Positions 936 through 9,730 of a DNA stretch of 9,730 nt are shown one piece after another. The DNA comes from Ruminococcus sp. GTDB lineage: Bacteria; Bacillota_A; Clostridia; Oscillospirales; Ruminococcaceae. The number at the start of each line of letters is the position of its first letter. Position 1 is the first letter of the stretch. The notes below the pieces were generated by a model, which had not been told where the DNA came from, ran no database searches, and saw only the letters and a list, made by a program, of their open reading frames with translations. The position numbers and the translations under genes are program-made. Location of the stretch: assembly GCF_024684275.1 (NCBI RefSeq), contig NZ_JAIKXF010000066.1, positions 1 to 9,730 on the forward strand. Reading direction: 5' to 3'.

Positions 936-3077
936 TTATTTCTTTTTCATATACTCTTCAACTGGCATTATTTCTTCCTTGGTGGTAGAGGTATATGCAT
1001 AGTATGAAAGGATATATGAAGCATCTACTGCGTTGACATCACCGTTGTTATCAAGATCAGCAGCCTTCTTCTGTGCTTCAGTAAAATCGCCGTTCTGATT
1101 TGTTGAGGTCATGGCATAATAGGTCAGGACGATCGAAGCGTCAACAGCATTGAGCTTTCCGTCGTCGTTTACATCACCGAGCTCATACTCAACAGGTTGT
1201 GTTGTAACCGTTGTTGTTGAGCTCGTTACAGGCTTTGTCGTTGTAGTGGCTGAAGTTGTAGAAGTCGTTGTAGGCTTCTGAGTTGTGGTTGTTGAAGTTG
1301 TAGAAGTTGTTGTTGGTATCTGAGTTGTTGTAGTTGTTGTGTTAGCAGCGGTAGTAGTTGTTATGCTCGTTGTCGTAGTCGAAGTTGCTGAAGTGGTAAT
1401 TATTGTGGTTGTTGTTGAAACCACAGGTTCATCAATAGCTTCAAACGGTATATCGTTTTCTAAAGCAAATGTGTGTGCTGTTGAGTTTTCATAGCCGCGT
1501 ATCTTGGCAACGTAGATAAATGGTTTCCCATTCTGATCACGGTTGTCAGAAGCTAAGCTCGTAACATCACAGTCAGAATTCATGACAGTGATAGTCGGGT
1601 ACGAAACTCCCTCATTTTCATAACTACAGCCGTATAATGCATTTTTTCCGATACTTGTTACATCTTTAGAGAGATAAACATTAGCAATTTTCTCATATCC
1701 TCGATTTAACCAAGGAGACACTAAATTCGCTCCAGCCATAAGTGTCTGAAAATCCTGCATTGCACCTTGACCGTTTATCGTGAGATTCATGGCTTTCTCA
1801 TCATATTCCCAAGTTAAATACTCACCGCAAGTTCCAAAGTACAGTTTAGGACACTTAAAGAATGTATCTAAAAGTGAACCGCCATCAATATGTGAAATGA
1901 AATGAACATCTGATGGCATAGATACAGTTTCCAGATTATCAAAATAGCTGAGTTGACTAATCTCAGAAATATCTTCTTTTATTATAATAGAAATAACACT
2001 TTTTCTTGTATCAGCATCAATCCATGTGTATGAGTCGTTAATTTTTCCCTCTCCAGATATCGTAAGTGTACCATTACTATCAAGATGCCAAGTAGCGTTC
2101 TCACCACACTTACCGCTGGCAACAACTGTGATTTCACCAGTCGTAGTAGTCTCAGGAGCGGTGGTTGAAGCTGTTGAAGTCGTTGTAGGCTTCTGCGTTG
2201 TAGTAGTTGTTGTTGGCTTCTGAGTTGTCGTAGTCGAAGTTGTAAAGGTCGTTGTTGTCGTAGTTTCGGTAGATATCTCCTCAATTACCTCAAACTTTCT
2301 GTTATACTTTTCTGCATAAGCCTGCGCGGTTGAACCGGCATAGCCACGTATTACACCATCATATTCAGCTTCAGTAGGTCCTGCCGTCGCATTTGATATC
2401 GTTCCCGCAAAATCCGCTATTTCGCATTCAGGATTCCAGATAGTTACAGATTCAAGATCGCTGCAGTAACTAAAAACACCCTCTTCTATAGACTTAACAG
2501 TTCCCGGTATCGAAATTTTTTTCAGTCCAGAATCAAAGAAAGTCTCGTATTCTATTGTTTCCACTTTTCTCGGAAAAGTAGTTATGCTTTCAATACCGCT
2601 TTGATAAAAAGCGCGTCTGCCAATCGATTCTACAGACTCAGGAATCGTTATACTTGTCAGACTGCCGGTGCGAAAAAAAGCACTTGAACCAATTGTTTCA
2701 AGAGTAACGGGCAAAGATACCGACTTAACATTATAGCATGATAAAAATGCAGCATCTCCTATTGCCGTAACGCCATTATATATTTCGATCCTGTTTATTT
2801 TTTCGTAATTACTGTATTTTGCTGTGATGCCCATAGGCGGATATTCGCCCTGAAAAGCCCCCTTTTTAATTTCACCCTCGCCACTGATAGCGAGTACGCC
2901 ATTGCTGTCAAGAGTATAGGTAACGTTCTCACCGCAAGTTCCACTGTCAACAATATCCGCCGCAACCGCTGTGATACCAACGGTAGGCTGATATGCCGTG
3001 ACAGCTGTTTGTGCTCCGCAAACAACAGTCAAAGACATTATAGTCGCTAACGTCTTTTTCATTAGTTCGATTTTCAT
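936..3077 (-). CDS. secreted BspA-like LRR protein with type I dockerin
   Basis: A 713-residue exported protein, probably docked onto a cell-surface or cellulosomal scaffoldin through its dockerin. In order: signal peptide (1-40, KK then a hydrophobic core, cut likely near TAVAA); a CGENVTYTLDSNGVLAISG module (48-66); BspA-type leucine-rich repeats (about 94-215, with SVSLPVTLETIGSSAF and SITIPESVESIGRRAF); a Thr-rich linker (about 270-313); a second CGEN-type module (324-343); a third (417-436) with a weaker LRR part (about 460-500); a longer Thr-rich linker (554-626); and a dockerin (631-700) with two calcium-binding loops, DVNDDGKLNAVDAS and DLDNNGDVNAVDAS. No enzyme domain is visible, so adhesion or substrate binding is more likely than catalysis. 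SD AAGGAGA (3088-3094) supports the start. A terminator follows, and the leader suggests attenuation. Confidence 0.92.
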   Translation of the reverse strand: MKIELMKKTLATIMSLTVVCGAQTAVTAYQPTVGITAVAADIVDSGTCGENVTYTLDSNGVLAISGEGEIKKGAFQGEYPPMGITAKYSNYEKINRIEIYNGVTAIGDAAFLSCYNVKSVSLPVTLETIGSSAFFRTGSLTSITIPESVESIGRRAFYQSGIESITTFPRKVETIEYETFFDSGLKKISIPGTVKSIEEGVFSYCSDLESVTIWNPECEIADFAGTISNATAGPTEAEYDGVIRGYAGSTAQAYAEKYNRKFEVIEEISTETTTTTTFTTSTTTTQKPTTTTTTQKPTTTSTASTTAPETTTTGEITVVASGKCGENATWHLDSNGTLTISGEGKINDSYTWIDADTRKSVISIIIKEDISEISQLSYFDNLETVSMPSDVHFISHIDGGSLLDTFFKCPKLYFGTCGEYLTWEYDEKAMNLTINGQGAMQDFQTLMAGANLVSPWLNRGYEKIANVYLSKDVTSIGKNALYGCSYENEGVSYPTITVMNSDCDVTSLASDNRDQNGKPFIYVAKIRGYENSTAHTFALENDIPFEAIDEPVVSTTTTIITTSATSTTTTSITTTTAANTTTTTTQIPTTTSTTSTTTTQKPTTTSTTSATTTTKPVTSSTTTVTTQPVEYELGDVNDDGKLNAVDASIVLTYYAMTSTNQNGDFTEAQKKAADLDNNGDVNAVDASYILSYYAYTSTTKEEIMPVEEYMKKK
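1200..1418 (-). repeat. low-complexity Thr-codon tract, linker 2
   Basis: Imprecise repeats of ACA/ACT/ACC codons with Ser, Gln, Lys and Pro interruptions encode residues 554-626, before the dockerin. The unit ACAACTCAGAAGCCTACAAC recurs here and in linker 1. Such O-glycosylation-type Thr linkers are usual between modules of cellulosomal proteins. The DNA repeats could recombine or slip in frame. Confidence 0.8.
2139..2264 (-). repeat. low-complexity Thr-codon tract, linker 1
   Basis: Encodes residues 272-313 between the LRR domain and the second CGEN module. It shares the TTTTQKPTTT motif, at the DNA level too, with linker 2 about 800 bases away, so recombination between the two could delete the middle modules without breaking the frame. 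Confidence 0.75.
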
Positions 3078-3100: not shown

Positions 3101-3143
3101 AAAAAAAGAGTATCTCACAGGACATAGTTAGTCTGAGTGATAC
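3101..3143 (-). terminator. candidate attenuator hairpin with U7 tract
   Basis: Read on the minus strand: GTATCACTCAG (3143-3133) pairs at 9 of 11 positions with CTGTGAGATAC (3120-3110) around a 12-nt loop, followed by TC and seven Ts (3107-3101). The 5' arm is the last codons of the 34-codon uORF, whose TAA (3130-3128) lies in the loop. The dockerin gene SD comes just after the T-run. A ribosome ending the uORF would cover the 5' arm and should prevent the hairpin. The stem has two mismatches, so termination would be partial. Confidence 0.5.
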
Positions 3144-3414: not shown

Positions 3415-3657
3415 TTACATTGTAATGAATTCAGTTGGCGATCTGTGGTACTCTACAGCCTTCTCAAATACCATATTGGTCAGTGCTTTCTCAACTATAG
3501 CGCTGGGATCTCCATTCGGGCGTATCCATTCCTTCACATCCTCTTTATCCAGTATCAGAGGCATACGGTCGTGTATGTCTCCTACAGTGCCTGCCGCTTC
3601 TCGCGTAAGTATTGAGAACACAGGCACCTGCATATCACAATGCTCCTCATAACGATA
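3415..3657 (-). pseudogene. C-terminal remnant of an SRAP (YedK/HMCES-like) gene
   Basis: The intact family binds abasic sites in single-stranded DNA and forms a thiazolidine crosslink through an N-terminal Cys2. Here only the C-terminal third remains: VPVFSILTREAAG, then IHDRMPLIL with the conserved His of the H-D-R-M-P motif. SRAP-like sequence can be read in frame upstream of the ATG at 3633 (YRYEEHCD), back to an in-frame TAG at 3658-3660. The Cys2 domain is absent, so the crosslinking chemistry is lost. The ATG at 3633 has a purine-rich sequence before it, but this is just the Glu-Glu codons of the old gene. It lies at the junction between host-like genes and the repressor-integrase module, so the break could mark an old insertion or deletion. 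Confidence 0.75.
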
Positions 3658-3790: not shown

Positions 3791-4003
3791 TTAATAGCCT
3801 TCATCAGTCGGTTCGTATTTTATTATATCTTCAACGCTGCAGTTGAGTATTTTGCATAAGTCGTCTATCAGCTGAGTAGTAACGCCTTGATCATGACGAA
3901 GACGGTGTATGGTACTGCTGCTGATATTATATTTATTGATAAGCGTATATGTAGATACGCCTTTTTTCTTCATAGTTTCCCATAATGGCTTGTAAGTTAT
4001 CAT
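3791..4003 (-). CDS. small Cro/CI (XRE) family repressor
   Basis: A 70-residue helix-turn-helix protein: MITYKPLWETMKKKGVSTYT, then recognition-helix region NISSSTIHRLRHDQG (26-40), then the LIDDLCKILNCSVEDII tail (45-61) typical of compact YozG-like XRE regulators. I start at the ATG at 4003. The family begins with ITYKPLW here, and the earlier Met codons (4048, 4021) fall inside the promoter, the ATG at 4021 being part of the -10 box. The leader is then very short, with only GGTGAT as SD. It is transcribed away from the integrase, and its promoter overlaps a GACTA/TAGTC palindrome, as expected for a repressor controlling itself and the plus-strand promoter. No oligomerisation or protease domain is present. 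Confidence 0.82.
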   Translation of the reverse strand: MITYKPLWETMKKKGVSTYTLINKYNISSSTIHRLRHDQGVTTQLIDDLCKILNCSVEDIIKYEPTDEGY

Positions 4004-4019
4004 AATTATCACCAATTTC

Positions 4020-4048
4020 ATTATAGAGCATACTCGACTACTTGACAA
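4020..4048 (-). promoter_or_regulatory. repressor gene promoter
   Basis: Minus strand: -35 TTGTCA (4043-4048), 17-bp spacer, -10 TATAAT (4020-4025). The start would be near 4013, leaving about ten bases before the ATG at 4003. Confidence 0.65.
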
Positions 4049-4082
4049 TAGTCGTATATCTGACTATAATAATATATAGTCA
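4035..4082. promoter_or_regulatory. two palindromic operators over the divergent promoters
   Basis: Operator 1: CGACTA (4035-4040), 8-bp gap, TAGTCG (4049-4054), over both -35 boxes. Operator 2: TGACTATA (4061-4068), 6-bp gap, TATAGTCA (4075-4082), over the -10 and start of the plus-strand promoter. Both share GACTA/TAGTC half-sites, and their centres are 27 bp apart. The likely ligand is the 3791-4003 repressor (inference). Confidence 0.6.
4042..4070 (+). promoter_or_regulatory. fully consensus promoter facing the integrase
   Basis: TTGACA (4042-4047), 17-bp spacer, TATAAT (4065-4070): perfect sigma-A consensus. Its -35 overlaps the -35 of the repressor promoter by five bases on the other strand. 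Such a strong promoter would need repression, which the flanking palindromes suggest. Confidence 0.75.
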
Positions 4083-4148
4083 CAATTATGATTATAATAG
4101 TGTCGCTTAAAATAAGAAAGCCGCAAATTTCTCGAATTTGCGACTTCT
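4077..4148 (+). ncRNA. possible short leader or small RNA ending in a hairpin
   Basis: A transcript from the consensus promoter (start near 4077) would soon meet a hairpin: CGCAAATT (4122-4129) with AATTTGCG (4135-4142), 5-nt loop, extended by GAA/TTC. On the plus strand it is followed only by ACTTCTATTCT; the minus-strand reading has a better T-run (CTTTCTTATTTT), so it may stop transcription both ways. Bases 4121-4135 are perfectly complementary to 5501-5515 in the AAA+ gene leader. An open 25-codon frame at 4088-4165 has no SD and I do not call it. Whether RNA ends here or continues into the integrase cannot be told. Confidence 0.35.
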
Positions 4149-4330: not shown

Positions 4331-5419
4331 ATGCCGAGAAAAGGTGAAAACATATACAAGCGCCGTGATGGGCGCTGGGAAGGAAGATATAAAACAGGAT
4401 ATAACGAGCATGGCAAGGCGAAGTATCATTCCGTGTACGGTCACAGCTACACAGAAGTCAAGGAGAAGTTACTGCCTATGAAGGCTGCTCCTGCTGCTAT
4501 AGCAGCAGCTTCATGTAATATGACGGTAAAAGAGCTTTTTGATGAGTGGCTTGCGGCAGTAAAGCTGCGTGTTAAGTCTTCAACGTATGCTAATTATACT
4601 ATGAAGGTCAAGAAGCATATCCTACCTGCATTCGGCGGACTTCGATATGACGTACTGACGGTTCAAATGATTCACTCATTTATTGATAATAAGCTGAATG
4701 AAGGACTTTCTCCAAAATATGTTTCCGATGTTATTGTTGTTTTCAAGGCTATGGCGAAATACACCTCAAAAGTACACGGATATCGCAATATCCTCGCAGA
4801 TGTCGTTATGCCTAAATATATCAAAGAAGAGAAGCCTCTGCTTACACTTATACAGCAACGGATTCTGTGCAAGTATCTTTTTTCTAACTTGACCCCAACG
4901 ACATTGTGCCTATTATTGAGCTATTACACTGGACTTCGTGTTGGCGAAGTTTGCGGTATGATGTGGGACGATATTGATTTTGAAAAAGAAGTCCTTACTG
5001 TCAGGAGAACAGTTCAGCGTATAAACAACGGATCAAGTGGTACGCAGCTTATAATTGATACACCTAAAAGTCGCTCATCGCAGCGGACAATTCCAATACC
5101 AACATTTTTAATGAAATTGCTGCGGGAATCCCGCAGCAATAATAATCATTATATTTTATCGAATTCCGAAAGGATAATAGAGCCTCGTACATTGCAGCGC
5201 CGATTCCAGACAATACTGAAAAAAGCAGGATTACCGTCAGTGAACTATCACTGCCTTCGCCATATGTTTGCTACCAATAGCCTACAGGCAGGCTTTGATG
5301 TCAAAACTTTGTCTGAAATATTAGGACATTCAAGCGTAGAAACAACGTTAAATCGCTATGTACACAGCTCTATGGAGCGCAAGAGAGCTTGTATGGAGCT
5401 TATAAAAATAACTGCATAA
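4331..5419 (+). CDS. tyrosine recombinase (integrase)
   Basis: Catalyses site-specific strand exchange, probably for integration and excision of the element. The 362 residues divide into an N-terminal arm-binding domain (4-46, GENIYKRRDGRWEGRYKTG, AP2-like as in ICE and phage integrases), an Ala-rich linker (51-61), a SAM-like core-binding domain (about 64-160), and the catalytic domain (about 170-350). All six catalytic residues are visible: R203 (TGLRVGE), K246 (TPKSRS), H307 and R310 (HCLR), H333 (GHSS) and the nucleophile Y343 (RYVH). Length and motifs are normal, so it should be active. The strong SD GGAGGGA fixes the start. No excisionase was found nearby, and no direct-repeat att pair can be identified within the window. 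Confidence 0.93.
   Translation: MPRKGENIYKRRDGRWEGRYKTGYNEHGKAKYHSVYGHSYTEVKEKLLPMKAAPAAIAAASCNMTVKELFDEWLAAVKLRVKSSTYANYTMKVKKHILPAFGGLRYDVLTVQMIHSFIDNKLNEGLSPKYVSDVIVVFKAMAKYTSKVHGYRNILADVVMPKYIKEEKPLLTLIQQRILCKYLFSNLTPTTLCLLLSYYTGLRVGEVCGMMWDDIDFEKEVLTVRRTVQRINNGSSGTQLIIDTPKSRSSQRTIPIPTFLMKLLRESRSNNNHYILSNSERIIEPRTLQRRFQTILKKAGLPSVNYHCLRHMFATNSLQAGFDVKTLSEILGHSSVETTLNRYVHSSMERKRACMELIKITA
4491..4508. repeat. 18-bp perfect palindrome in the integrase linker
   Basis: CTGCTGCTA joined to TAGCAGCAG with no gap. It encodes the Ala-rich linker between the arm-binding and core-binding domains, so codon repetition may explain it. Confidence 0.5.
5116..5140. repeat. 25-nt perfect hairpin inside the integrase ORF
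   Basis: ATTGCTGCGGG (5116-5126) pairs with CCCGCAGCAAT (5130-5140) around an AAT loop. The next bases are AATAATCATTATATTTTATC. It encodes residues 263-270, between two catalytic motifs, and GC-richness stands out locally. It could slow or prematurely end transcription, or be a captured REP-like unit. Confidence 0.6.
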
Positions 5420-5452: not shown

Positions 5453-5591
5453 CATCGTAACTGTGGTAGTAGCGGTCATAACAACTATACCACCATAAAA
5501 TCGAGAAATTTGCGGTAGGAGTAATTCTGATATTTATATTATATTCCAATTATAAGTGAAATATTTATTATTGAATAGAAGGAGATTAAAA

Positions 5592-6542
5592 ATGCCTCTG
5601 ATTCCAAATTCAAACAATCCAGATTTTCAGAATCATGATAAAAAGCAAGAGAAACACGAAATACAATTCAAGAAGTCAGAACCGATTTACACGTTTTCAG
5701 ATCTTATTCTTTCGGACAAGACATTGGATGAATTAAAAACCGTTGTCAGTGCTCAAAAGAATTGGAATAAAGTATTTATTGAATGGGGACTTGGCTCCAT
5801 AATTAAAGAAAGAAAAAATCTATTTGTCAATCTTTATGGAGATTCTGGAACTGGGAAAAGTATGTCAGCGCATGCAATAGCCTCAGCATTAGGCAAGAAG
5901 TTAATATGTGTGAATTATGCGGATATTGAATCAAAATATGTCGGGGAAACAAGTAAAAACCTTACAAGACTATTTAATGATCCGAATAATTGGGATGATA
6001 TTATTTTTTTCGATGAAGCGGATGCACTTCTTAGCAAACGAGTTACAGATATGAGTAGCGCAACAGATGTAAGTGTTAATCAAACACGTTCTGTTTTACT
6101 AACATTATTGAATTCTTATGAAGGAATGGTTATATTTGCAACAAATTTTATTAGCAATTATGATTCTGCTTTTATGAGAAGGATACATTATCATATCCGT
6201 TTTAATCTTCCTAATGCAGAACTACGAGAAAAACTATGGGCTCATTATATCCCTGATAAAATGCCAGTTAATATTGATATCCAATACTTATCTCAGAAAT
6301 ATGACAATCTTAGCGGAAGTGATATTTCAACAGCGGTCTTAAAAGCTGCACTAAATGCAGCCAAGAACAATGCGGAGATTATTTTACAGACTGATTTTGA
6401 TATTGCCATAGAGAGCATTATTAATAGTAAGAATGCTAACGCTAATAATACATCGAAAATTGTTAAAAGTGAAATAGTAGAAGAAAAAAATGTACCATTA
6501 TCCATTCGCAAGAAATCGTATGAAAGCGAGGATATAGAATGA
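5592..6542 (+). CDS. classical AAA+ ATPase (unfoldase/remodeller type)
   Basis: A 316-residue single-ring AAA+ ATPase. Residues from the ATG at 5592: Walker A GDSGTGKS (83-90), pore-loop 1 SKYVGE (114-119), Walker B IIFFDEAD (137-144), sensor-1 Asn in IFATNF (185), arginine fingers FMRR (196-197), and the sensor-2-region GSD (242-244) of classical AAA proteins such as Cdc48, FtsH and Vps4. The aromatic pore loop suggests it threads or pulls a protein substrate. There is no protease domain and no membrane segment. The charged N-terminal 40 residues may bind an adaptor; the C-terminal tail (about 278-316) looks disordered. I start at 5592 because AAGGAGA lies six bases upstream; the ATG at 5556 has no SD. 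It overlaps the next gene by ATGA, so the two are translationally coupled. Its substrate is unknown. Confidence 0.9.
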   Translation: MPLIPNSNNPDFQNHDKKQEKHEIQFKKSEPIYTFSDLILSDKTLDELKTVVSAQKNWNKVFIEWGLGSIIKERKNLFVNLYGDSGTGKSMSAHAIASALGKKLICVNYADIESKYVGETSKNLTRLFNDPNNWDDIIFFDEADALLSKRVTDMSSATDVSVNQTRSVLLTLLNSYEGMVIFATNFISNYDSAFMRRIHYHIRFNLPNAELREKLWAHYIPDKMPVNIDIQYLSQKYDNLSGSDISTAVLKAALNAAKNNAEIILQTDFDIAIESIINSKNANANNTSKIVKSEIVEEKNVPLSIRKKSYESEDIE

Positions 6543-6889
6543 TTCTGTTTAGCTTAGTAAAAGAATTTGTAATTCAAACGGTTGCGCAGGGAGTATTAAC
6601 TCTTATAGAAAGATTTAAACAGTCTTTTGTTCAATGGCTTCAACAGATTCCAGAAATGATACAGGATAAAGTTGACGGCATTGTTTATGGTTGTAAGACA
6701 TTTGTTAGGGAGCAGTTGGGAATCAATAAAGAAATATCTGATAATTATGCATTTAATGGAAAGCAGTGGCAAAAAACAACTGTTACTCGTGAAGTAAGGT
6801 CTTCTGAGGTCCCATATGAAATATCAAGCCAAATTTCAAATGGAGAGGTATTAGATGTTACAGAAGAATTGGAGCTTTATATGAAATAG
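6539..6889 (+). CDS. Q1: uncharacterised protein, paralogue of Q2
   Basis: A 116-residue protein of no family I recognise. The N-terminal 60 residues are hydrophobic to amphipathic (FSLVKEFVIQTVAQGVLTLI at 4-23, then VQWLQQIPEMI), which could lie on a membrane, but no clear spanning helix is seen. The C-terminal half looks like a small soluble domain. It shares an ordered set of motifs with the protein at 7710-8087: QWL (32-34), GCKTF (51-55), SDNY (67-70), WQKTTV (77-82), VPYEI (91-95) and an acidic VTEELEL end. It overlaps the ATPase stop codon (ATGA), so it probably works with the ATPase. A role as adaptor or membrane anchor is inference. Confidence 0.75.
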   Translation: MILFSLVKEFVIQTVAQGVLTLIERFKQSFVQWLQQIPEMIQDKVDGIVYGCKTFVREQLGINKEISDNYAFNGKQWQKTTVTREVRSSEVPYEISSQISNGEVLDVTEELELYMK

Positions 6890-6906
6890 TAAAGGAGAGA
6901 TTATAA

Positions 6907-7296
6907 ATGGCTATTTTTAAACAGAATCAACCTAAAACAGATAGGAAACTATTTACATGGGATTCTTTTTTAGAATACTATAATCAAAGAATTGATAGCG
7001 AGATCATATCGTTTAGCAGAGCCAATAATCAGTTTTATTACGGAGGAAAATGTACTATTTCTGCGAAGGTTAATGAAGATGAATTTTCCAAAAAAACATA
7101 CCTAATAGTCGTATCTGTTCTTTATTTTAAAGACCAATTTACGAAAAAAGTTATAGAAAGAACAATTAAAAGCAAATTTGATTATCAGGAATTCAATAAG
7201 GATAAAGAAACTTTAGCACAGTTGCGCAGTATCGTTAGCAAACCGATGGAGGTTAATATAGATTCTCCTGTAATAGAAAGTGAGGTAGATCAATAA
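6907..7296 (+). CDS. Y1: uncharacterised soluble protein, paralogue of Y2
   Basis: 129 residues, no membrane segment or signal peptide, not recognised. It has a mixed helix and strand pattern: FTWDSFLEYYNQRID (16-30), YYGGKCTISAKV (44-55), a beta-like TYLIVVSVLYF (64-74), then a helical Lys-rich part. The protein at 7296-7703 matches in the same order: T-[WY]-x-x-F-[LI]-E ... ID, YGG-[KE]-C-x-I, a hydrophobic strand, TK-x-x-I, and a D-x-[ET]-T-x-x-x-L-x-x-I end. Strong SD (AAAGGAGAG) 17 bases after Q1. Its stop overlaps the start of Y2 by one base, so the Y pair is translationally coupled. Function unknown. Confidence 0.75.
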   Translation: MAIFKQNQPKTDRKLFTWDSFLEYYNQRIDSEIISFSRANNQFYYGGKCTISAKVNEDEFSKKTYLIVVSVLYFKDQFTKKVIERTIKSKFDYQEFNKDKETLAQLRSIVSKPMEVNIDSPVIESEVDQ

Positions 7297-7703
7297 TGCC
7301 GTTTCCACCTGTAATTATTGTATTTGCATCAGTAGGAGTTATATTAGCCTATTTTTACCATAAAGGAAAAAAGTGCGAAAAAAGACCTGTTACATATAAT
7401 CAATTTATTGAGCAGCTTAGTAAGCAAATAGACAATTATATGATAAATGAAGAGAAAAAAACAGGAATATCTATGTATGGCGGTGAATGCAATATATATA
7501 TAACACAAGAATCACCTGATATAGTATTTATGAAAATAATATTATATGGCAAAAAGAAAAAAGATGATAATTGGACCAAAAGTGAAATATTACAAAAATT
7601 GAATATATCAGATTTTACTGATGATCAGGATACACAATCAAAACTGGAAAAAATTAAGATGAAGCCAGATAATTTTAAGGTTAGTAGACCTAGTAAGGAG
7701 TAA
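7296..7703 (+). CDS. Y2: membrane-anchored paralogue of Y1
   Basis: 135 residues. Unlike Y1, it begins with a hydrophobic helix (VIIVFASVGVILAYFY, 6-21) followed by HKGKK, a likely N-out, C-in single-pass anchor by the positive-inside rule. The cytosolic part repeats the Y1 pattern: VTYNQFIEQLSKQID (32-45), MYGGECNIYI (60-69), IVFMKIILYG (76-85), and TKSEILQKLN (94-103), with DQDTQSKLEKI near the end. The very basic KKKKDD stretch is specific to this copy. It starts inside the Y1 stop codon, with GAGG 11 bases before the ATG. The SD of the next gene (AAGGAG) lies in its last codons. Function unknown. Confidence 0.75.
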   Translation: MPFPPVIIVFASVGVILAYFYHKGKKCEKRPVTYNQFIEQLSKQIDNYMINEEKKTGISMYGGECNIYITQESPDIVFMKIILYGKKKKDDNWTKSEILQKLNISDFTDDQDTQSKLEKIKMKPDNFKVSRPSKE

Positions 7704-7709
7704 TTAATT

Positions 7710-8087
7710 ATGCTTGGTACATTGTTGATTATTGGAGCAGTTGGAGCTCTTGCAGGTGCAGTCATTCATGCATATTGGAAGAACATAATACAGTGGCTTG
7801 CTAAAGCGGCAAACAAAATTAAAGAAGTATTGCATGTTGTTGTCGAAGGAACAGAAACATTTATAAAGAGAATAGGTGCCGGATTTAAAAACATGTCAGA
7901 AAACTATTCCAAGCTTCCTGATAATAAATGGCGAAAGGATACCGTGATTGAAAGTACCTATATAGATGAGAATGATGTTCCGGAAGAAATAAAACGTGCT
8001 ATGCAAAATTCTATGGGAATCGAAGGAGAAAAAATAGAGATAACTTCTTATGTTGAAAAGCAAGTACTTTCTTTATCTAATAAGTAA
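7710..8087 (+). CDS. Q2: membrane-anchored paralogue of Q1
   Basis: 125 residues. A clear N-terminal membrane helix (LGTLLIIGAVGALAGAVIHAYW, split here as LGTLLIIGAVGAL and AGAVIHAYW, 2-23), rich in small residues. Then a helical region (KNIIQWLAKAANKIKEVLHV, 24-43) and a soluble domain with the Q motifs in order: QWL (28-30), GTETF (47-51), SENY (63-66), WRKDTV (74-79), VPEEI (90-94), and IEITSYVE near the end. Identity to Q1 is low but the motif order and spacing agree, so common descent is convincing. It follows Y2 by six bases with SD AAGGAG. As with the Y pair, this copy carries the clear anchor and the other does not. Confidence 0.76.
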   Translation: MLGTLLIIGAVGALAGAVIHAYWKNIIQWLAKAANKIKEVLHVVVEGTETFIKRIGAGFKNMSENYSKLPDNKWRKDTVIESTYIDENDVPEEIKRAMQNSMGIEGEKIEITSYVEKQVLSLSNK

Positions 8088-8099
8088 GGTGGTGAATAT

Positions 8100-8921
8100 A
8101 TGTTTTGTAACATAGTAGATGTTCCTTTTTTAATAGCCTTTATAATAATACTTGTTGTTTGGTGTGCTGTAGGCGCTTTTTTGACATCTATTCACCCTGT
8201 TATTGGTGGAATATACATATTCTGTGCTTTTATAGCTTATATTCGACTTACAGTTGCTGAGTTTACGAATGGACATATATTCCATGGAATCGTTGCGGTT
8301 ATACCGATTATATTATTGATTTTACTTGTTATATATTTTTATATTGATGAGCAGAGACAGGAAAAAGTTAGAAAAATCGAAATTCCTCAAATTCAAGAAA
8401 GAGTTGAAAAATATATTGCAATAAATGGATATACATCGCCTAAAAGATTTGTTGAAAGCTTTGATAGTAATCCAGAGTATCAAAATGCAAGATCAGTTTC
8501 ATATAATAATCCTCTTTATATTGAACAGGTTGAAGCCAATAAGAAAAGACGAGCTAACAAACAAGAGCCATTAAAAATCACAGAGCCTTCAATGATATCA
8601 TATGGAAAGTATTCTTCTTTTATATATAAAGAAAAAGTACTAACATATTTTATGCCGAAATTAGAAGAAGTATTAAAATCTAATCATATGTTTGATTATG
8701 ATAATTTATATGATTTTATGCCTGATTTCAAGGAATTCTTTAAAAAGGATGACGGTAGCATTGATAAAGTATATTTTGCGCAAGCATGCATTGGAATGAT
8801 TAATCAAAGCATAAAAAATGGTATAATTGAAAAAGTAGGTGATTCAGGCACGCTATATCGTTCTAAAATCATATCAGAAGAAGATGGAAATGTTGTCGAA
8901 GGTGAGGTGATAGAATTATAG
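8100..8921 (+). CDS. three-pass membrane protein with cytosolic C-terminal domain
   Basis: 273 residues, family not recognised. Three hydrophobic segments lie at about 9-29 (FLIAFIIILVVWCAVGAFL), 34-52 and 62-82 (HGIVAVIPIILLILLVIYF). The remaining 190 residues are soluble, start with a charged helix (EQRQEKVRKIEI), and end in a region that could be a winged helix (VYFAQACIGMINQSIKNGIIEKV, here given as VYFAQACIGMIN and QSIKNGIIEKV, then GTLYRSKI for the wing, about 224-257). Basic residues after the third segment put the tail in the cytosol. SD GGTGGTG lies right after the Q2 stop, so it is the same operon. It would be the natural membrane platform for the ATPase and the Q/Y proteins (inference). 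Confidence 0.78.
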   Translation: MFCNIVDVPFLIAFIIILVVWCAVGAFLTSIHPVIGGIYIFCAFIAYIRLTVAEFTNGHIFHGIVAVIPIILLILLVIYFYIDEQRQEKVRKIEIPQIQERVEKYIAINGYTSPKRFVESFDSNPEYQNARSVSYNNPLYIEQVEANKKRRANKQEPLKITEPSMISYGKYSSFIYKEKVLTYFMPKLEEVLKSNHMFDYDNLYDFMPDFKEFFKKDDGSIDKVYFAQACIGMINQSIKNGIIEKVGDSGTLYRSKIISEEDGNVVEGEVIEL

Positions 8922-8973
8922 ACCCGTTAAATATCAATATATAACTTTTACAAGGTAACGAGGAGGTGCTTTT

Positions 8974-9207
8974 ATGGCAATTTATTGGACGCAAAAAAAA
9001 CAATGTGCTACATGTGAGTATTGGAATGGTCCAAGACAACTTAGATCAGACCCTCGTGTAGTAGAATGTCCGGATGATTATGATGATGCAAAAGGAATGT
9101 GTCAAGGAATTAAATTTCCAGCACAGCGTGGAAAAATGGTTCATGCAGGTACCTGTGCTGGTGGTGGAATGTGCTGGGTCTGCGCAAGGGGGCTGAGTGA
9201 GCGTTAA
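8974..9207 (+). CDS. small Cys-rich (probable zinc-ribbon) protein
   Basis: 77 residues with Cys at 11, 14, 32, 43, 61, 67 and 70. The first pair is CATCEYW, followed by GPRQ; the last is CWVC. This spacing suggests one or two bound zinc ions. Cytosolic, no signal peptide. Strong SD GAGGAGGTG. It begins 52 bases after the membrane gene, the widest gap so far in the operon, and has no terminator before it. It shares C-x-T-C-x-Y-[WY]-x-x-x-RQ with the next gene, so the two may be related. Possible roles are nucleic-acid or protein binding; nothing in the sequence decides. Confidence 0.72.
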   Translation: MAIYWTQKKQCATCEYWNGPRQLRSDPRVVECPDDYDDAKGMCQGIKFPAQRGKMVHAGTCAGGGMCWVCARGLSER

Positions 9208-9272
9208 ATACTAGGGAACTTTAATTAGTTGATAGAAGAATGATTTTTATTAGTTAGAAAGGTAGGTATAAT

Positions 9273-9464
9273 ATGGGATTATTTAATAAGAATAAGTATA
9301 ACATGAAGGATCAGTTAAAGAAAAATGTTGCTGCAAATCTTGGTTCATGCAGAACTTGTCGTTATTATGATAGATCACGTCAGGTTTGTTTGAATAGAAG
9401 TAGTGGAGTAACTTATACAAATGAAAGTCAGCCTAAATGTAAATGTTATCAATTGAATCTTTAA
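9273..9464 (+). CDS. small Cys-rich protein related to its upstream neighbour
   Basis: 63 residues with a basic N-terminus (NKNKYNMKDQLKKN) and Cys at 26, 29, 39, 56 and 58. CRTCRYYDRSRQVC closely resembles the CATCEYWNGPRQ start of the 8974-9207 protein, but this copy lacks its C-terminal Cys pair and ends CKCYQLNL. A zinc-bound fold through C26, C29, C39 and C56 or C58 is plausible. SD AAAGGTAGG supports the start. It is the last gene before the IS region: an IS-type end begins three bases after its stop, so any natural downstream part of the operon may have been displaced. Confidence 0.65.
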   Translation: MGLFNKNKYNMKDQLKKNVAANLGSCRTCRYYDRSRQVCLNRSSGVTYTNESQPKCKCYQLNL

Positions 9465-9500: not shown

Positions 9501-9566
9501 GTGCAAAAAAAGAGTATATGATAAGACCGATTGTTAGCGCAGTCGGTCTTATCTGCATATTAGCAC
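9501..9566. repeat. imperfect palindrome between the two IS ends
   Basis: Central stem GATAAGACCGA (9520-9530) with TCGGTCTTATC (9543-9553), perfect over 11 bp with a 12-nt loop. Weaker outer pairs follow: ATAT (9516-9519) with ATAT (9557-9560), and GTGC (9501-9504) with GCAC (9563-9566). No U-tract follows on either strand, so a terminator is possible but not typical; it could also be an element end or a cruciform-forming site. Confidence 0.5.
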
Positions 9567-9668: not shown

Positions 9669-9730
9669 ATGAGCAGAAGGCGAAGAAACGAAACAGAAGA
9701 GCAGCGTGCAAGAAGAGAGCTGATAAGCGA
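9669..9730 (+). CDS. IS256-like transposase, N-terminus only
   Basis: The frame opens MSRRRRNETEEQRARRELIS and runs off the right edge. A basic start followed by an E/Q/R-rich helix, behind an IS256-type terminal repeat and a good SD (GGAGG), is what a mutator-type transposase looks like at its N-terminus. The catalytic DDE domain is not in the window, so activity cannot be judged. Alternative: another IS family with a similar leader. Confidence 0.6.
   Translation, partial: MSRRRRNETEEQRARRELIS

Follow-up and report, generated by a model that had tools for sequence, protein, structure and literature searches.

What does an AAA+ ATPase do when it is encoded together with seven proteins that belong to no recognised family? 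This question is raised by a 9,730-nucleotide stretch of Ruminococcus sp. DNA (contig NZ_JAIKXF010000066.1; hereafter the window), in which positions 5592-9464 hold eight tightly packed open reading frames (ORFs) of the plus strand. As stated in a preliminary description made from the letters of the DNA, these ORFs have coupled starts (an ATGA overlap between the AAA and Q1 genes, and a TAATG overlap between Y1 and Y2), are AT-rich (G+C of 0.29-0.33 across 5601-9100 vs 0.35-0.42 leftward) and adjoin the genes of an integrase and a repressor. They encode, in order, the ATPase (AAA, core component A; 5592-6542), Q1 (core component Q; 6539-6889), Y1 (core component Y; 6907-7296), a second Y (Y2; 7296-7703), a second Q (Q2; 7710-8087), a membrane protein (8100-8921), and two small Cys-rich proteins (8974-9207 and 9273-9464). 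Comparison with other genomes shows that A, Q and Y are co-inherited and that a short stretch of Q is found again on other proteins, with a related version on part of the AAA tails. We consider it very probable that AAA, Q and Y constitute a three-part unit.

The AAA protein, 316 amino acids long from its ATG, was analyzed by Pfam searches, motif alignment, a phylogenetic tree and hydropathy. Its match to the Pfam AAA family (E = 6.5e-24; 85.3 bits, cut-off 21.2) identifies it as a classical AAA ATPase, and an alignment with six relatives bore out the motifs that had been read from the sequence, including Walker A (GDSGTGKS), Walker B (FFDEAD), an aromatic pore loop (KYVG), the sensor (ATN), and an RR pair. 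Its MPI start is shared by the AAA relatives in loci L001, L002 and, by ORF call, L004. The closest solved sequences are those of VCP-like ATPases (2.7e-29), and this likeness, together with the aromatic pore loop, recalls remodellers of the Cdc48/VCP and Msp1 type; unlike these, the window AAA has one AAA domain and no N-terminal transmembrane (TM)-like segment. Hydropathy, at the threshold chosen for calling TM-like segments, detected none in the protein, and no extra Pfam domain was found. Unlike FtsH proteases, AAA showed no Pfam match to the M41 peptidase domain at E up to 1, and its lid is followed by no more than a short tail. It also matches PHROG 3757, a family of unknown function (1.8e-58); viral contigs scanned with the single AAA and with query P0020 yielded no relative.

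None of the seven non-ATPase proteins reached the cut-off of a Pfam or NCBIfam family or matched PADLOC at E up to 1, in agreement with the earlier statement that they lie outside known families, and the Pfam scan of all eight operon proteins detected no peptidase family. Against PHROGs, for which there are no cut-offs, the hydrophobic N-terminal part of Q2 matched tape-measure proteins (1.4e-05), as did two Y members (best 0.00033); we take these matches as reflecting composition.

AAA, Q, Y and a membrane protein are encoded in the order of the window on a Moraxella osloensis plasmid and on a 10-kb Comamonas plasmid. A scan of one genome per species, from which the best 80 of at least 519 loci were used, showed that AAA, Q and Y also occur together in Ruminococcus callidus (where the order is AAA-Q-Y-Q-membrane), Synergistaceae, Intestinimonas and Selenomonadaceae. 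The recurrence of the AAA-Q-Y order in other genomes argues that the operon is more than a chance arrangement. The preliminary description would have been refuted had the gene set not been conserved together in other genomes; as the three components are co-conserved there, this refutation did not occur.

The collected loci hold 142 non-redundant AAA ORFs, 17 with both Q and Y within 5 kb, 8 with Q only, and 117 with neither; three of the 17 (L142, L147 and L152) had been fetched for their matches to the Q element described below, and the other 14 were found regardless of Q or Y. In a tree of 86 rows, comprising 80 AAAs of up to 460 amino acids and 6 of the 62 longer ones, all 17 sit in one 25-row clade (Shimodaira-Hasegawa [SH] support of 99) that includes the window AAA, which has two copies each of Q and Y within 5 kb. 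Flanks affect these counts: of the 62 longer AAAs, 24 lie in short loci (about 2.2-4.0 kb in all), as do 5 of the 80 shorter ones; outside such loci, Q and Y are nearby in 0 of 38 longer vs 17 of 75 shorter AAAs. The eight clade rows without an adjacent Q-Y pair (L004, L039, L041, L043-L046 and L048) include the end of a phage record (L004), two loci that stop near the AAA at a contig end (L044 and L048), and two whose genomes carry Q-Y elsewhere (L043 and L046).

Co-inheritance was analyzed in 151 genomes from the family of G408 (the genome of L036, a Selenomonadaceae metagenome-assembled genome), with match thresholds of E = 1e-60 for AAA and 1e-6 for Q and Y. AAA is present in 37 of these genomes, Q in 38 and Y in 36; 35 have all three and 113 have none, the exceptions being G434 and G476, which lack Y, and G559, which lacks AAA. 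Q and Y are usually neighbours, Y lying within 1.5 kb of 57 of the 63 Q matches and Q within that distance of 53 of the 56 Y matches. The 37 genomes with both AAA and Q include 13 that lack any AAA match within 6 kb of Q (G536 has the two on one contig, about 57 kb apart), and since AAA and Q are not neighbours there, linkage alone fails to explain their co-occurrence. Two points weigh against taking these counts at face value: the hypergeometric probability of 1.5e-34 overstates the co-inheritance, as the positive genomes are related and do not represent 37 independent events, and in G551, G520 and G515 the "unlinked" AAA lies near a contig start and may in fact be linked. The split arrangement also bears on the suggestion that the operon is cargo of a mobile element, which fits the window, the two plasmids and the phage end, whereas AAA and Q are not neighbours in these 13 of 37 genomes of the Selenomonadaceae family.

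Around R. callidus the distribution is sparser, with a close AAA in 1 of 16 genomes of the genus; within the family, 40 of 396 genomes have an AAA relative at 1e-30, of which only that of R. callidus is close (64%; others up to 41%). Three genomes of this family (G128, G262 and G398) encode paired AAA proteins of 638-787 amino acids about 5 kb apart, which represent a different system.

Q and Y had been presented as two kinds of protein, a distinction that the structure predictions do not uphold. Protein searches collected 115 Q clusters, one of which has a precomputed Pfam domain, and 27 Y clusters. The AlphaFold model of Q2 (68 sequences; predicted local distance difference test [pLDDT] 84.9, predicted template modelling score [pTM] 0.76) has a hydrophobic helix (residues 4-16) followed by an a-b-b-b-a-b topology: helix 21-41, strands 45-55, 58-68 and 74-80, helix 92-100, and strand 108-110, with a further helix at 112-123. 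The model of Y1 (30 sequences; pLDDT 71.5, pTM 0.55) shows the same a-b-b-b-a-b order, with helix 18-40, strands 42-58, 61-76 and 82-92, helix 100-111, and strand 114-118. Judging by the order of elements in the two models, not by superposition, Q and Y thus share one predicted topology, and hhalign gave 72% in matching register with the deeper profiles vs 24% with smaller ones. The Y model, however, is only of moderate quality. A 95% hhalign match between Q and set C is partly circular, as set C had itself been picked with the Q model. Searches of Q and Y against solved structures gave no clear match, known folds considered being cystatin-like and the COMM domain. Among 30 Y members, Y2 alone matched FtsH_ext, below the cut-off (15.7 bits, E = 0.017; cut-off 25.5).

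Q and Y mostly lie next to each other, and naturally occurring fusions combine TM plus tag (the Q element) with Y domains in L162 and Y with a Q-like tail in L007/L008; the obvious interpretation is a Q-Y heteromer. Two such pairs would then be encoded in the window: Q1-Y1, without TM-like segments, and Y2-Q2, each with an N-terminal one (residues 1-24 of Y2 and 1-23 of Q2).

The comparison does not support the eight genes as one unit, as they were taken to be in the preliminary description. The membrane protein of the window, whose first 85 residues contain hydrophobic segments and whose C-terminal part is soluble, had no match in a plasmid search at E = 0.1 and shows no homology by BLAST to the membrane proteins encoded after Q-Y elsewhere; in five loci, the proteins in that place are mutually unlike (best E between loci, 0.038). 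The Cys-rich proteins (7 Cys of 77 residues and 5 Cys of 63) had no relative among the ORFs of the collected loci at a BLAST E of 0.5, save a 37-residue match with E = 0.21, and were not found with the core elsewhere. By sequence comparison, the conserved core is AAA, Q1, Y1, Y2 and Q2; the membrane protein, which we consider accessory, and the Cys-rich proteins fall outside it.

A further feature linking this core to other genes is a short element in strand 3 and helix 2 of Q, roughly TTR-x-I-x-E-x-E-V-P-x-x-I-R-x-K-I, located at about 6776-6835 in Q1 (TTVTREVRSSEVPYEISSQI) and about 7941-8003 in Q2. Searches used a tag model of 26 positions, built mostly from Q, at a threshold of E = 1e-4. 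Matches were found in 36 of 38 genomes having any core part vs 0 of 38 sampled from the 113 having none, and 11 of the 61 matches, in 10 ORFs, lie outside Q-model matches, three of these ORFs being within 2 kb of an AAA match and seven elsewhere. The proteins bearing the element are diverse: microproteins consisting of a hydrophobic start and the element, Sel1-repeat proteins (L038 and L158), an EIIA protein with a DO-GTPase2 domain (L151), an EIIA protein followed by a separate DO-GTPase2-like gene scoring under the cut-off (L157), and a protein without a hydrophobic start (L146 and L159); in L035 (8903-9184), it is present as two tandem copies. In four genomes (L148 and L154-L156), a microprotein is encoded between a branching-enzyme-like and a sigma-factor-like gene, away from AAA matches; these neighbours were identified by Pfam for the enzyme in L148 and for both genes in L154, and by eye in the rest.

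A related sequence is found at the C-terminus of AAA. The tail pattern KRxVSEEYVKxQ occurs in 11 of 25 clade AAAs vs 0 of 117 other AAAs, and a model of such tails, searched against 9,725 non-AAA ORFs of fewer than 400 amino acids, retrieved four at E < 0.01, compared with 0 of 9,725 shuffled sequences. All four are small tagged proteins encoded in AAA operons, and two represent a single gene found in two genomes. Conversely, the R. callidus AAA tail scored 14.7 bits with the Q-element model, compared with best scores of 7.7 for 710 shuffled tails, 7.6 for 357 windows of AAA bodies, and 2.6 for 63 tails of long AAAs.

An alternative to a docking tag, which we hold to be less than evenly likely, is that there is no docking motif at all: the microproteins would be shrunken Q paralogues, the element a PepSY-like structural core, and the likeness of the AAA tail a case of convergence. 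Several observations favour this alternative and weigh against a tag. The microproteins keep the start and the element of Q without the middle; 50 of the 61 tag matches are Q, from which the model was mostly built, and a first count with a strict motif also returned mostly Q itself. PepSY_like (PF11396) weakly but repeatedly matches strand 3 and helix 2 of Q, in 22 of 68 members at E up to 1 (best 0.0054), and 6 of 10 Q proteins scanned singly matched it at 13.2-15.5 bits, under the cut-off of 28.3; Q is possibly a distant relative of this domain by sequence, and since these matches cover the tag region, the element may represent the core of an ancient small domain rather than a signal for docking. 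As for the tails, the model was built from 13 of them, selected by a pattern chosen by eye; of the tails scored with the Q-element model, that of R. callidus alone (one sequence in two rows) rose above the shuffles, and the window tail (KSEIVEEKNVPLSIRKKS, 6465-6518), which resembles that of R. callidus and the Q element by eye, scored a non-significant 4.0 bits. Fourteen of the 25 clade AAAs fall outside the pattern, and eight of them, all from Selenomonadaceae/Selenomonadales (L039-L041, L043-L046 and L048), end right after the lid, which indicates that the tail is not needed throughout; six of these eight stand for genomes or loci without an adjacent Q-Y pair. The tail-less AAAs and the PepSY_like matches thus lower the likelihood of docking and raise that of the alternative. 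Against it stand the occurrence of the element in combination with unrelated domains (Sel1, EIIA with DO-GTPase, and also Y) and its tandem arrangement in L035, the ability of the tail model to single out tagged small proteins among 9,725 ORFs, and the retention of a microprotein in four genomes at a place away from AAA matches.

The reading we prefer, while holding it at slightly under even likelihood, is that of a membrane-tethered AAA+ remodeller with a Q-Y platform and a docking tag, used in conflict or stress. The Q-Y heteromer would sit at the cytoplasmic side of the cell membrane, held there by the hydrophobic helices at the N-termini of Q2 and Y2. AAA would act at this platform as a hexamer, in some members aided by its tagged C-terminal tail, and would use ATP to pull on or take apart proteins displaying the "SExEVPxxIR" element, or to extract them from the membrane. 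Tagged microproteins, the GTPase and the Sel1 proteins would be clients or recruits of the same hub, gathered by one receptor, for which a first guess is Y, as it is without the element and present in 35 of 37 AAA genomes; operon-specific membrane proteins such as that at 8100-8921 would be exchangeable outputs. The membrane-located unfoldase suggested in the preliminary description is likewise conjectural, and the lack of a TM-like segment in Q1 and Y1 at the chosen threshold weighs against the scheme.

On mobile elements, the likely setting of such a machine would be conflict with phages or other elements. A role in conflict is suggested by the WYL regulators beside AAA in three loci, by the plasmid and phage-end contexts, and by the link of DO-GTPases to conflict systems (PMC7159879); the split arrangement in 13 genomes points to a broader role in stress or at the membrane. 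For use in defence as such, our confidence stops somewhat short of an even chance. The conflict systems described by Kaur et al. (2020) include FtsH ternary and DO-GTPase systems with AAA+ or GTPase cores and exchangeable partners, and the DO-GTPase2-match protein of L151 bears the Q element (PMC7159879). Unlike the FtsH ternary systems, the window operon has no MoxR or vWA match in its eight proteins and combines a single-domain AAA with Q and Y.

More broadly, it is conceivable, if doubtful, that we are dealing with a bacterial recruitment network of a kind not seen before, in which an AAA+ motor, a membrane Q-Y platform and a short system-specific tag address many unlinked proteins (microproteins, GTPases and Sel1 scaffolds), in immunity or membrane remodelling. 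By analogy, such a network would resemble the endosomal sorting complex required for transport (ESCRT) and Vps4 with their short motifs, the parts being unrelated. Vps4 reads short motifs on its partners, to which the Q element would correspond. ESCRT-like modules comprise Vps4 with Snf7 or PspA with an AAA+ ATPase, and so likewise couple a classical AAA+ ATPase to small membrane-proximal proteins (PMC11237479). Unlike these modules, the eight window proteins have no Pfam match to MIT, Snf7 or PspA at E up to 1, and Q and Y are predicted to be alpha/beta proteins.

While the motor belongs to a known kind, the searched libraries contain no above-cut-off entry for its partners, for the way they are paired or for the tag network, and in the open-licence literature we recognised nothing that describes an AAA with such partners. 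The bacterial machine is apparently undescribed, and there is a real chance that the AAA-Q-Y system deserves a category of its own. Gene order, co-inheritance, fusions and a common short element here connect families unnamed in the libraries, which offers a compact AAA+ pathway, open to testing, in bacteria of the gut and rumen and on plasmids. Should the element prove to be a docking code, each tagged gene becomes a predicted client, including conflict-type GTPases.

An alternative that concerns function, and which we regard as unlikely, is phage defence in the style of IetAS, in which AAA would sense a trigger or unfold it and a partner would kill the cell or stop the phage, the membrane protein of each operon being the effector. 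The top-scoring named anti-phage relatives of AAA are indeed the IetA models (PADLOC 1.1e-31; NCBIfam 2.8e-31), both systems have a classical AAA ATPase and occur on mobile DNA, and plasmid and phage-end contexts together with an exchangeable last gene would suit this explanation. Moreover, WYL regulators adjoin AAA in L004 (the end of Moraxella phage Mcat5), L007 and L037, loci picked by eye; 48% of the WYL regulators of the BrxR family are reported to be located with known phage defence (PMC9122601). However, AAA scores 109 bits against the IetA equivalog, far from the cut-off of 510, the operon has neither a subtilisin-like IetS nor any other peptidase and brings Q and Y as partners instead, and the split form seen in 13 genomes does not resemble a defence island.

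Less likely still is a housekeeping role in membrane-protein quality control or envelope stress, Msp1- or FtsH-like in effect, in which Q and Y hand misplaced or damaged membrane proteins to AAA. The system is split yet kept in 13 genomes of the G408 family, Q2 and Y2 have hydrophobic N-termini, genes for dynamin-like and zinc-ribbon GTPases follow a small-protein array in L142, and an EcsC gene lies near the L037 operon, all of which would fit. The patchy distribution (37 of 151 genomes in the G408 family, 1 of 16 in the genus of R. callidus) and the lack of a peptidase domain in the eight window proteins do not. Finally, that the operon serves replication, partition or transfer of its carrier element is very improbable, as the integrase neighbour in the window and the 10-kb plasmid in Comamonas are offset by copies in the G408 family on contigs with ordinary chromosomal genes (by eye) and by the finding that neither AAA nor Q nor Y matches a family for replication or transfer above its cut-off.

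AAA genes elsewhere are also accompanied by arrays of small proteins. In L142 (1048-10216) and L163 (2353-11143), a large operon encodes AAA and then about nine small proteins (Q, Y and tagged), one of which in L142 is a phosphopantetheine carrier, followed by an 838-amino acid zinc-ribbon GTPase and a 596-amino acid dynamin-like GTPase (Pfam on L142 only). In seven further loci (L006, L052, L053, L057, L060, L061 and L063), from a cyanobacterium, Bacteroidota, Lentisphaeria and Firmicutes, related AAAs (34-42% identity) are preceded by about three to five small proteins. Many of these start with a hydrophobic or amphipathic segment and close with a C-terminal part of the form "lD.el...f....ivvLs", a pattern that by eye resembles the Q/Y topology. 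These arrays suggest a wider theme, although hhalign of Q or Y against them (sets R and K) gave at most 2%, so that they are not joined by sequence, which counts against such an extension.

With regard to the element context of the window, the integrase gene (4331-5419, plus strand) encodes a tyrosine integrase (Phage_integrase, E = 4.9e-29; Phage_int_SAM_3, 9.5e-13), and the repressor gene (3791-4048, minus strand) a Cro/C1-type protein (HTH_26, Pfam E = 5.1e-16). Beside the repressor start, two palindromes with 8-nucleotide spacers were read by eye within 4035-4081 (CGACTA-N8-TAGTCG, 4035-4054; GACTAT-N8-ATAGTC, 4062-4081), and both overlap a sigma-70-type promoter on the plus strand that matches at 12 of 12 positions (4042-4070). 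By their sequence and place, both palindromes are likely the putative operators of this repressor, and the perfect promoter match inside them, beside the repressor start, makes repressor control of the element likely. The integrase gene is flanked by a 19-nucleotide inverted repeat (95%; 4121-4139 and 5497-5515), whose left copy is nearly palindromic and which possibly provides recombination or operator sites. A direct repeat of 23 nucleotides (83%; 3101-3123 and 9505-9527) spans the element, its AT-richness being too high for a call of attachment sites.

On the other side of the operon, a 14-nucleotide inverted repeat (repeat pair I18, 93%, with 6 nucleotides between the arms) lies 3' of the last gene at 9520-9553 and is a possible transcription end, absent from the computed terminator list. 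An ORF start cut by the window end (9669-9730, MSRRRRNETEEQRARRELIS) is, by eye, perhaps that of a transposase, and is preceded by two similar stretches, "aaattttgtgtgaac" and "aaaatttgtgtaaac", also recognised by eye. Leftward, beside the element, positions 3415-3633 encode a C-terminal piece of an SOS-response-associated peptidase that covers positions 148-204 of the 214 in the SRAP profile and was possibly cut by an insertion. Further upstream, the ORF at 936-3077 encodes a secreted-looking protein of 713 amino acids with Thr-rich linkers and a dockerin-like end recognised by eye, which suggests a cellulolytic Ruminococcus.

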